Positions 1,764 to 15,297 of a DNA stretch of 64,000 nucleotides are shown here, piece by piece. Position numbers and translations under genes: made by a program. Origin of the DNA: Ancylobacter novellus DSM 506 (GTDB taxonomy: Bacteria; Pseudomonadota; Alphaproteobacteria; Rhizobiales; Xanthobacteraceae). The stretch is taken from the NCBI RefSeq assembly GCF_000092925.1, contig NC_014217.1, positions 4,030,001 through 4,094,000 of the forward strand, given 5' to 3'. How positions within the stretch are numbered: the first letter of the stretch is position 1; each line of letters begins with the position of its first letter. The notes beneath the pieces are model-generated. The model was not told where the DNA came from, did no database searches, and saw only the letters and a program-made list of their open reading frames with translations.

Positions 1764-3782
<2,019 letters not shown>

Positions 3783-6404: not shown

Positions 6405-7457
6405 TCAGAATCCCCGCACCTTCGCGACCATCCGCTCGACATGCGTGATCGGCGTTTCCGGGCGGATGCCGTGGCCGAGATTGAAGATATGCGCCGCGCC
6501 GTGGAAATCCTCCATCAGCGCGTCAATGCCGCGGTCGAGCGCGTCGCCGCCGGCGATCAGCGCCAGCGGATCGAGATTGCCCTGCAAGGCGCAGCGCCCG
6601 CCCAAAGCGAGCCGCGTGGCGCGCCGCTCTGCCGTCCAGTCGAGGCCGACGCCGTTCACCCCGGTCCTCAGCACCAACTCGGTCAGACCGGCCAGCGTCG
6701 CTCCCTTGGGAAAGGCTATGATGCGCGCGCCGGGAACCTGTGCCCGCACGCCGTCGACAATCCGCTTGATCGGTTGGATGGACCAGCGCCGGAAGCTCTC
6801 CGGGTCCAACACGCCCGACCAGGTGTCGAAGATCTGCACCGCATCGGCACCGGCCCTGAGCTGCCCGACGAGATAGCCCACCGAGGCCTCGACCAGTCGG
6901 TCGATCAGCGCCTCGAAGAAATCCGGGTTGATCAAAGCCGCCAGCCGTGCCGGCGCCTGGTCCGGCGTGCCGCGGCCGGCGACCATGTAGGTCGCGACCG
7001 TCCAAGGTGCGCCGCAGAAGCCGAGCAGCGCCGTCTCGCCGGGCAATTCGGCACGCACGCGGGAGACCGTCTCCAGCACGCGGTCGATCTTCGACGGATC
7101 GAGATCGTCCCTCAATGCCTTGAGATCGTCGGCATCGGTCACCGGCTGGAGGCGCGGACCCTCGCCGGCCTCGAAGGTGAGGGGACAGCCCAGCGCGTGC
7201 GGCACGACGAGGATGTCGGAGAACAGGATCGCCGCATCGAAGCCGAAGCGGCGGATCGGCTGAAGCGTCACTTCGACCGCATGCTCGGGCGTATAGCAGA
7301 GCGTGAGGAAGTCGCCGGCCTTTTCGCGCACCTCCCGGTACTCCGGGAGATAGCGCCCCGCCTGGCGCATCATCCAGATCGGCGTGCGTTTCGGCACATG
7401 GCCGTCGAGCGCCTGCAGCAGGATGGATGAACCCGCCTTGTCCCCCGGCTCTTTCAT
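6405..7457 (-). CDS. hemE: Uroporphyrinogen decarboxylase
   Basis: Decarboxylates uroporphyrinogen III to coproporphyrinogen III in heme biosynthesis. The 350-residue protein carries the signature [17 protein letters not shown] (about residues 26-42) and the active-site aspartate in [14 protein letters not shown] near residue 83. It ends [20 protein letters not shown], the usual family C-terminus. It starts with ATG at 7457, on the edge of the proposed oriC, and is transcribed away from it. The region before the start has no strong ribosome binding site. hemE next to oriC is a known alphaproteobacterial arrangement. Confidence 0.98.
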
Positions 7458-7763
7458 ACTTTTTTAATCTCTATTGAAGGAAGGTAGTCTTTGTTTAGGT
7501 GAGGGCATTAGACGGGTTCCTCGGCCCTCACAAGCCACCCCCAGCCTGGCCTCCGGGCGGGCGCCCGCGGGCGTGCCTGATATCGAGGCGAAACAAGGGC
7601 TTATCCGAACCGCGGCGGATTATCCACGCAGTTCGCAAAGAGGGCTTTGATTCCGATCACAGGGGCAGCCCTGTGGAGGACGTGCCCCGCTTTCCCCAGC
7701 CCGGACTTGCTAACGCCGGCTCGGCATGGCTTGTTCCATCGCTATGCACAGCCCTGTGGATGA
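7458..7763. other. oriC: Proposed chromosomal replication origin (oriC)
   Basis: This non-coding gap between divergent hemE and ppsR is where oriC sits in Caulobacter and several rhizobia. It contains an AT-rich tract at 7451-7500, a likely unwinding element. DnaA-box-like 9-mers are TTATCCACG at 7620-7628, TCATCCACA on the minus strand at 7755-7763 (one mismatch each), and weaker matches at 7601-7609, 7672-7680 and 7742-7750. A CtrA-like TTAA-N7-TGAA lies at 7464-7478 and a CcrM-type GATTC at 7649-7653. Genes on either side are directed outwards. The call rests on position plus motifs; no skew calculation was made. Confidence 0.75.
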
Positions 7764-8629
7764 CCGGCGTGACTGACCCCTCTCGCCCGTCCGAAAGCTA
7801 TTACCACCTGCATCTCGTGTCGGATTCGACCGGCGAGACGCTGATCAGCGTCGGCCGCGCCGCGGCGGCGCAGTACGACGTGAAGCCGATCGAGCACATC
7901 TATCCGCTGGTGCGCACGCAGAAGCAGCTCGACAAAGTCATCCAGGCGATCGACGAATATCCCGGCATCGTGCTCTACACGCTGACCGAGCCGGAGCTGC
8001 GTAACCGGCTGAAAACCTATTGTCTCGCCAATGGCATACCTGTGCTTTCGGTTCTCGCTCCGGTGGTGCGGCTGTTCCAGGCCTATCTCGGCGGCGCTCC
8101 CGAGCCCCGCGTCGGCGGTCAGCACCAGCTCGACGGCGATTATTTCCGCCGCATCGACGCGATGAACTTCACCGTCATGCACGATGACGGCCAGCATGTG
8201 GACGGGCTGGAGGCGGCGGACGTGGTGCTGCTCGGCATCTCCCGCTCGTCGAAGACGCCGACCAGCATCTATCTCGCCAATCGCGGCATCAAGGCCGCCA
8301 ATATACCGCTGGTCCCGAGCATTCCCGTGCCGCCCGGCCTGTCTGAATTGAAGCGGCCATTGGTCGTCGGGCTCGTCGCCAGCGCCGAGCGGGTGGTGGA
8401 GATCCGCCGCAACCGGCTGCTCGGGCTGAACGCGGCGCAGGCGGCCGACGCCTATACCGATCGCGACTCGGTGGCCGAGGAGATTGCCTTCTCCCGCCGG
8501 CTCTGCGCCAAGCATGGCTGGCCGATGATCGACGTCACCCGCCGTTCCATCGAGGAGACGGCGGCGGCCATCATCGGGCTGCTGCAGGAGCACCGGCGCA
8601 AGCTGTCCGAGGACGCAAGTGTCGGATAG
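7760..8629 (+). CDS. ppsR: PpsR-type pyruvate,phosphate dikinase / PEP synthase regulatory protein (DUF299)
   Basis: Bifunctional serine/threonine kinase and Pi-dependent pyrophosphorylase that switches PEP synthase or pyruvate phosphate dikinase off and on. The 289-residue product has the N-terminal signature YYHLHLVSDSTGETLISVGR and the ADP-binding P-loop LGISRSSKTPTSIYLA near residue 158. The ATG at 7760 is chosen because the family motif begins about 12 residues later. A GTG at 7769 is equally in frame and upstream starts would read through oriC. No clear ribosome binding site decides between them. Its stop overlaps the start of maf. Confidence 0.93.
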   Translation: MTGVTDPSRPSESYYHLHLVSDSTGETLISVGRAAAAQYDVKPIEHIYPLVRTQKQLDKVIQAIDEYPGIVLYTLTEPELRNRLKTYCLANGIPVLSVLAPVVRLFQAYLGGAPEPRVGGQHQLDGDYFRRIDAMNFTVMHDDGQHVDGLEAADVVLLGISRSSKTPTSIYLANRGIKAANIPLVPSIPVPPGLSELKRPLVVGLVASAERVVEIRRNRLLGLNAAQAADAYTDRDSVAEEIAFSRRLCAKHGWPMIDVTRRSIEETAAAIIGLLQEHRRKLSEDASVG

Positions 8630-11435: not shown

Positions 11436-11903
11436 TCAGGAGGCGAGCACGTTGCTCGGCTGCTGCTGCGCCATGCGCTGGCGGTAGAGGGTGACGAAGT
11501 CCACCGGATCGATCATCAGCGGCGGGAAGCCGCCATTGCGCACGGTGTCGGCGACGATCTGGCGCGCGAACGGGAACAGCATGCGCGGGCATTCGATCAG
11601 GATGAAGGGGTGGATCGTCTCCTGTGCCACGTTCTGGGCGCGGAAGATGCCGGCATAGACCAGCTCCAGCGCGAACATGGTCTTGCCGGAGAGCTCGGCC
11701 TTGGCCTCGATCTTCAGCTCGACCTCGTACTCGCCGCCCTCGCGCACCGGGCGCGCATTGACGTTGATCTGGATGCCGATCTGCGGCTGGCCCTTGACGA
11801 TCAGCGATTCCGGCGCGCCGGGATTCTCGAACGACAGGTCCTTGGTGTACTGCGTCAGCACCTGCAGCGTCGGCATCGGCGCGGCGTTTTCGGTCTCGGC
11901 CAT
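11436..11903 (-). CDS. secB: Protein-export chaperone SecB
   Basis: Tetrameric chaperone that keeps preproteins unfolded and delivers them to SecA. The 155-residue acidic protein reads [19 protein letters not shown], then [15 protein letters not shown], a conserved family block, and ends with the typical region [18 protein letters not shown]. The ATG at 11903 is chosen because it has a good ribosome binding site (AGGAGA, spaced 6 bases); a longer in-frame start lacks family similarity. It is divergent from the Tim44-like gene across a 432-bp gap and convergent with dnaQ. Confidence 0.97.
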
Positions 11904-12335
11904 GAATATCTCCTGGGGTCCGCCGGGCGCGCCGCGAGGGCGCCGGCGCATGGTGCCGCTGGGTCGGTAATTCCGCCGCAGACGGTCTTGGGCGATAAGG
12001 CGGGTGTCGCTAACATGGTTGCCCGCAGGCTAGCAAGCGCGCGCCCGTGGAAAGCCTTGCGCCGCCGCCATGAAGGTGAGGGGCTTGGCAGCCGCTTGGC
12101 GCGGTGCGCCGGCTTGCTCTACTGTTCAAATCGCATCGCCCGGCAACGGCTCTTCCGTGCGAAGTGATGACCCAGCGGCATTCACGGGGTGGCGAAATCG
12201 GCCAGACGTCGTAAATAGGTCATGGAGGGTGCCTCGGCTTGTTCCGACTGGAACGCGGCGGAATGCGCACCACATGAGAGTCATCCCATCGCCGAAAGGG
12301 TATTTCGGCGGCGTACAGCAACGGCGAACTGCGAC
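11904..12335. other. Divergent intergenic region between secB and the Tim44-like gene
   Basis: This 432-bp gap should hold the promoters for secB (leftward) and the Tim44-like gene (rightward). I see no convincing protein gene, hairpin with T-run, or recognised operator in it. In-frame codons continue upstream of the Tim44-like start but do not look like family sequence. Confidence 0.5.
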
Positions 12336-15277: not shown

Positions 15278-15297
15278 CCGGTTTCACGTGAAACCGG
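15278..15297. other. parS-like ParB binding site 3 within a perfect 20-bp palindrome
   Basis: The core GTTTCACGTGAAAC matches the central 14 bases of parS exactly, and the palindrome extends by CCG/CGG on each side to 20 bp with no mismatch. It lies in the 33-bp gap between the convergent XRE gene and hslU. A hairpin from this palindrome could also help end both transcripts, but no T-run is present. Confidence 0.88.

Follow-up and report, generated by a model that had tools for sequence, protein, structure and literature searches.

Where does replication of the Ancylobacter novellus DSM 506 chromosome begin? The question is raised by the gap between hemE and a ppsR-like gene, which a sequence-only reading had put forward as the probable chromosomal origin. 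The DNA that we analyzed, called the window here, is a stretch of 64,000 nucleotides spanning bases 4,030,001-4,094,000 of a single-contig genome of 4,765,023 bp, and feature coordinates count from the start of the window unless they are marked as genome coordinates. The hemE-ppsR gap occupies 7458-7763 (306 bp), which corresponds to genome 4,037,458-4,037,763 (about 4.0375 Mb).

The gap is bounded on its left by hemE, encoding uroporphyrinogen decarboxylase (6405-7457, minus strand; Pfam URO-D, 1.2e-111), and on its right by a gene for a ppsR-like kinase/pyrophosphorylase (COG1806, DUF299; 7760-8629, plus strand; Pfam Kinase-PPPase, 1.9e-89 for 7769-8629), so that its boundaries are the hemE and COG1806 genes, as in alphaproteobacterial oriC. 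The ppsR start is ATG 7760 or, alternatively, GTG 7769; the former would overlap the last DnaA box. We checked mnmE, rho, hemJ, hemE, ppsR, maf, aroE and coaE against protein families. By these matches mnmE, rho, hemJ (UPF0093) and hemE run leftward, and ppsR, maf, aroE and coaE run rightward. The description of the flanks as pointing outwards holds for most of the genes tested; since a DUF255 gene between mnmE and rho (1764-3782) runs rightward and a small ORF (11436-11951) leftward, this orientation is that of the majority and not a rule, and mnmG has just about 65 codons inside the window.

We followed the neighborhood through 57 ppsR loci, comprising 27 named loci and the best 30 of 60 family genomes (the window among the 30); as the family search matched 60 genomes and these loci come from its top-scoring half, the sample is thin in more distant members of the family. 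hemE lies beside ppsR in 52 of these 57 loci. Counts over 51 gaps omit L154, L163, L169, L175 and L178, which have no hemE in the stretch examined (L163 lies at a record start, with 425 bases upstream), and L174, in which the hemE alignment starts late. Nineteen Ancylobacter-clade rows were picked by a ppsR identity above 80%, and they include the window (L156), two MAGs, Bosea sp. 117 and Xanthobacteraceae bacterium 501b; near-duplicates among them (L138 and L157 look identical in the alignment) mean that 19 rows are not 19 independent tests. Among named relatives, ppsR is most similar to that of a Xanthobacteraceae MAG, at 98% identity, followed by Ancylobacter species at 82-92%.

DnaA boxes were scored against TTATCCACA with up to two mismatches, using weights of 4, 2 and 1 for 0, 1 and 2 mismatches. 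The sample of the genome scanned for DnaA boxes, AT content and CtrA triples amounts to 1.496 Mb (31% of the 4.765-Mb chromosome) and includes the whole window. Exactly five 9-mers in the gap qualify, two with one mismatch and three with two, just as the sequence-only reading had placed and graded them. The first, TTATCCGAA (7601-7609, plus strand; two mismatches), is not conserved in relatives. The second, TTATCCACG (7620-7628, plus strand; one mismatch), falls where TTATCC[AT]C is present in 17 of the 19 clade genomes, and the third, TCCTCCACA (7672-7680, minus strand; two mismatches), has a plus-strand core, TGTGGA, that is invariant in the clade (19/19). The last two form an inverted pair at the ppsR start, CTATGCACA / TCATCCACA (7742-7763), with members at 7742-7750 (plus strand; two mismatches) and 7755-7763 (minus strand; one mismatch); CACAG..CTG.GGAT is found here in 19/19 clade genomes. 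These predicted boxes make up a DnaA-site cluster that is conserved in the clade: against the five observed, dinucleotide shuffles of the gap give a mean of 0.44, and none of 2000 shuffles contained five or more. Two or more one-mismatch boxes arose in 1 of the 2000. The weighted score of the gap, 7, is reached by no other 306-bp stretch in the 1.496-Mb sample. No perfect DnaA box lies within the gap, and the exact TTATCCACA occurs at just 2 sites in the whole genome, neither of them in the gap, as compared to 26 for the reversed control. This scarcity suggests avoidance, and it makes even near-perfect boxes notable in this genome.

The same kinds of site recur in relatives. The TCCACA core is found 124 times, in 51/51 gaps (named loci and the best 30 of 60 family genomes), as compared to 9.4 in mononucleotide shuffles, with 39 occurrences in the clade (shuffles 3.0) and 85 in the other gaps (shuffles 6.4). 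TCCCCA, the Caulobacter W-box and a weak DnaA site according to the part of PMC4285127 available, is found 69 times in 42 of the 51 gaps (clade 25, shuffles 5.3; others 44, shuffles 8.5). The window's gap contains a single TCCCCA (7693-7698, plus strand), which by itself is at chance level (509 of 2000 shuffles), and TCCCCAG is kept at this place in 18 of the 19 clade genomes. A W-box-like hexamer, CCCCCA (7538-7543, plus strand), contains the CCCCA that is conserved in the clade alignment. As a side observation, L169, L175 and L178, where hemE is absent beside ppsR in the stretch examined, have by raw count five to seven DnaA-like 9-mers in the 600 bases that precede ppsR; the origin may stay with ppsR where hemE moves away. 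No TCCACA core occurs upstream of ppsR in L169. Four DnaA-like 9-mers were seen in the 425 bases of L163 and three in L154, the most distant locus.

The AT-rich tract noted earlier at 7451-7500 is present, has a GC content of 30% and is a candidate DNA-unwinding element; 1251 of 1,490,120 50-mers in the sampled genome are as AT-rich. In 50 of the 51 gaps (27 named loci and the best 30 of 60) the AT-richest 50-mer falls in the third nearest to hemE, and in the window the hemE start codon lies at the edge of the tract. Read from hemE to ppsR, the alignment of the 19 clade gaps shows an AT-rich block where hemE starts (TTCATACTT in 18/19, TTCATCTTT in L142), ATTAG...GTT.C, an invariant CAA and CCCCA, followed toward ppsR by TTATCC[AT]C, TGTGGA, TCCCCAG, CTTGC.A, TG[GT]CTT[GT]T and CACAG..CTG.GGAT. 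The origin footprint of DnaA boxes, W-boxes and AT-rich tract is thus conserved across the 19 Ancylobacter-clade genomes. A separate block, CTTGC.A-N14-TGGCTTGTTC (7706-7736, plus strand), keeps both of its ends, CTTGC.A and TG[GT]CTT[GT]T, in 19/19 clade gaps and matches no DnaA, CtrA or promoter consensus known to us. Resembling blocks can be seen by eye in other family gaps, and exact CTTGC.A is not enriched outside the clade (3 of 32 family gaps). An Rfam scan at the gathering threshold produced no match in the gap and one tRNA only across the window, so no RNA gene is indicated in the gap; the Caulobacter origin has an RNA, CcnA, as described in part of PMC8959179.

To place the gap on the chromosome, we computed cumulative GC skew from 119 sampled stretches and the first 60 kb of the window. 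The minimum is a plateau from 4.01 to 4.13 Mb, with its lowest bin at 4.12 Mb, and the gap at 4.0375 Mb lies inside it. When two steps are fitted on a 20-kb grid, the origin falls at 4.14 Mb, to the right of the gap by 100 kb, and the terminus at 1.84 Mb. Relative to the gap, bootstrapping of the fitted origin (60 resamplings) gives quartiles of +2 and +102 kb, the 5-95% range being -418 to +102 kb. Given this broad range and the fit at 4.14 Mb, skew agrees with the region and by itself picks no gap; the minimum that an origin here calls for is in the gap's region and not far off, with 31% of the genome sampled and no pinpointing. The strand bias of GGGNAGGG, an octamer that we tentatively take to be an FtsK-orienting motif, switches sharply at 1.84-1.92 Mb, which is presumably the terminus. 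Its fit puts the origin at 3.86 Mb, and this bias does not mark the origin sharply. A search for a dif site with an E. coli-like pattern and 3 mismatches found none.

The parS-like sites are more closely placed. With up to two mismatches, the whole genome contains four, and the reversed control none; they lie at genome 4028252, 4030267, 4030314 and 4045280, 7-10 kb from the gap and on both sides of it. The three inside the window are at 267-282 (one mismatch), 314-329 (two mismatches) and 15280-15295 (two mismatches). ORFs that we read from their sequence as parB, parA, rsmG and mnmG lie at genome 4,025,839-4,029,999 (11839-15999 of L111), so that the hemE-ppsR gap has both parS and parAB nearby, as looked for at an origin. 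In eight relatives searched with up to one mismatch, parS sites lie 4-16 kb from ppsR in six (G024, G027, G043, G056, G060 and G023); G060 has one more site far away, with one mismatch, and in G023 the control gives one match. Of the other two, G013 has ppsR at the first bases of its record and parS near the last, and G038 has four sites, all with one mismatch, of which one lies about 15 kb from ppsR and the others elsewhere.

The skew minimum in the region, the parS cluster, the top-scoring DnaA-box cluster in the sampled third of the genome and conservation in relatives bear out the proposal that the hemE-ppsR gap is the origin, and we hold it to be very probably the oriC of this chromosome. 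As judged from its sequence, the predicted origin is one of the known alphaproteobacterial hemE-COG1806 type, built as is usual in the class. DnaA itself is a 503-aa protein whose gene lies about 1.3 Mb from the gap. In the mechanism that we infer for DnaA binding, unwinding and initiation at the gap, DnaA would bind the boxes 7620-7628 and 7672-7680 as well as the inverted pair (7742-7763) and would spread over the W-boxes, which are weaker; melting of the AT-rich tract on the hemE side would follow, and two forks would leave; and ParB at parS sites no more than 10 kb away would then segregate the copied origin.

The alternative that survives best is that the gap is a divergent promoter region only, at which DnaA acts as a transcription factor, with the true origin elsewhere nearby. 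DnaA boxes can regulate genes, and the breadth of the skew minimum leaves room for such an arrangement. A weak hemE promoter-like pair, TTGTGA-N17-TAATGC (7505-7533, minus strand), also overlaps the invariant ATTAG block (19/19); this putative pair includes ATTAG, the CAA is invariant too, and as an inference only, the ATTAG...GTT.C block and CAA would fit a weak leftward hemE promoter. However, a scan of 7380-7850 for consensus promoters and terminators found none, the box cluster is the top-scoring one in the sampled genome, and parS-like sites flank the gap on both sides. Promoter and origin roles can, moreover, coexist, and according to a figure legend in PMC8959179 transcription of hemE is important to replication in Caulobacter. 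We consider it very improbable that the gap is a promoter region and nothing else.

Still less credible is an origin at a dnaA gene, either the dnaA-like gene at base 434, near the start of the record, or dnaA at about 611 kb. In many bacteria oriC does lie beside dnaA, and the record starts near a gene with DnaA domains. Yet neither 0 nor 0.61 Mb coincides with a minimum of cumulative skew in the sampled stretches, and no parS-like site lies near base 434 or 0.61 Mb, so we reject both places. The cumulative GGGNAGGG count is lowest overall in the first bin because its curve does not close. The gene at genome 434-1672 (L006) is a second DnaA-like gene of 412 aa, with ATPase and DNA-binding domains and no match to DnaA_N, and its neighbor encodes a DNA methylase; the locus may belong to a mobile element. 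From these features the record start is probably a mis-rotation, to this DnaA-like gene and not to the origin, and the origin placed at the hemE-ppsR gap indicates that the first base of the record is not the origin. That the gap is coding, with ppsR starting further upstream, can be dismissed: the ppsR frame is open from 7499, 90 codons into the gap (90 of 103 codons stop-free), but in all 19 clade genomes, the window included, a stop interrupts this frame within the gap (between -6 and -303), the lengths of the clade gaps are spread over all three frames, and conservation takes the form of short blocks with variable spacing.

Having settled on the hemE-ppsR gap as the very probable origin, we turn to its control, for which CtrA and CcrM had been suggested, a proposal that finds partial support only. 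The regulators are encoded. ctrA lies at genome 2711521-2712189 and scores 419 bits against NF045991 (RespRegCtrARhodob), with the cut-off at 350 and the runner-up at 180 bits; GcrA is encoded as well; and a 397-aa open frame has a RAMA-domain match, which among 14 control genomes is found only in Caulobacter, so we take this protein to be CcrM-like. The specific sites fare less well. TTAA-N7-TGAA is present as described (7464-7478); no more than 5 of the 19 clade genomes share it, on which ground we reject it as a conserved CtrA box. The one GANTC site of the gap, a CcrM-type methylation site, starts where reported (7649-7653), and its position is not conserved across the clade. Over the 51 gaps taken together, GANTC sites are nonetheless denser than in the mostly coding flanks (9.27 versus 1.51 per kb), and each of the 51 gaps shows the higher density.

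The TTAA-N7-TGAA pair overlaps a second such pair on the opposite strand, and together they form a degenerate, putative CtrA-like array, TTCA-N7-TTAA-N7-TGAA (7453-7478), of three half-sites at 11-bp spacing. The triple occurs nowhere else in the 1.496-Mb sample, which contains five TTAA-N7-TGAA sites on both strands, two of them in the triple. The left pair, which overlaps the hemE start codon, is kept in 16/19 clade genomes. The window's gap contains no consensus box, TTAA-N7-TTAA, and within the clade L143 alone has one, at another place. Outside the clade, a box TTAAC[CG]GTTGATTAAC is found in seven genomes of five genera (L158-L162, L165 and L167, from the best 30 of 60), 48-77 bases from the hemE start; L163 has the box too, and L164 has it with one base changed (TTCA). 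This box is apparently in line with the ATTAG block, as read from consensus and sequences. No box of this shape is present in 23 of the 32 non-clade gaps, among which L152, L155 and L170 have other TTAA-N7-TTAA sites. The presumed origins of L158-L165 and L167 contain consensus CtrA boxes, in several cases two about 100 bases apart. In five genomes chosen for having the box, a whole-genome search for TTAA-N7-TTAAC found 5 to 13 distinct places per genome, one or two of them in the hemE-ppsR gap, and in two of the five the total is not clearly above the reversed control (G018, 9 versus 9; G057, 16 versus 13 strand hits). The same search of the window's genome and of its congener G022 found none in the gap. 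It is possible, though doubtful, that rewiring within the family has altered direct control of the origin by CtrA, with a consensus box in the related genera and a degenerate phased half-site array in the Ancylobacter clade.

Our literature searches on Ancylobacter with oriC returned taxonomic work only, as judged by titles, and those joining CtrA, DnaA and oriC binding sites in Rhizobiales returned nothing; the present analysis provides a footprinted origin for the Ancylobacter-like group, which can be set beside known ones. The Caulobacter crescentus Cori resembles it in its hemE and COG1806 boundaries and its AT-rich region, which lies on the hemE side in the window (PMC1914354, in part), in its few and weak DnaA boxes together with TCCCCA W-boxes (excerpts of PMC4285127), and in the linkage of parABS to the origin (PMC4468827, portion available). 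It differs in its G-box core, TGATCCAC, which is absent from all 51 gaps counted, and in its five CtrA sites, which have no consensus counterpart in the window and one degenerate array in their stead. The Hyphomonas neptunium ori shares the hemE neighborhood and has been mapped in cells, whereas that of the window is predicted from sequence; the excerpt of PMC6650430 places the marker-frequency maximum near hemE and parAB about 7 kb from hemE, and that of PMC7200025 reports CtrA bound next to ori.

Sinorhizobium meliloti belongs to the same bacterial order as the window, and its chromosomal origin also lies at the hemE-COG1806 place. Neither its origin nor the window's gap has a consensus CtrA box, and the available part of PMC4433202 reports that the S. 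meliloti origin has no CtrA motif and is not bound by CtrA. Published statements on CtrA at the origin thus differ by species, unbound in S. meliloti and bound nearby in H. neptunium, as far as these excerpts go. Unlike S. meliloti, the window's clade carries where hemE starts the degenerate, phased array of CtrA-like half-sites, and related genera have consensus CtrA boxes. If the rewiring is real, consensus box and half-site array alike would put CtrA in direct contact with oriC, in the order to which S. meliloti belongs. The comparison makes it testable whether direct contact of CtrA with the origin is a feature of some Hyphomicrobiales and missing in others.
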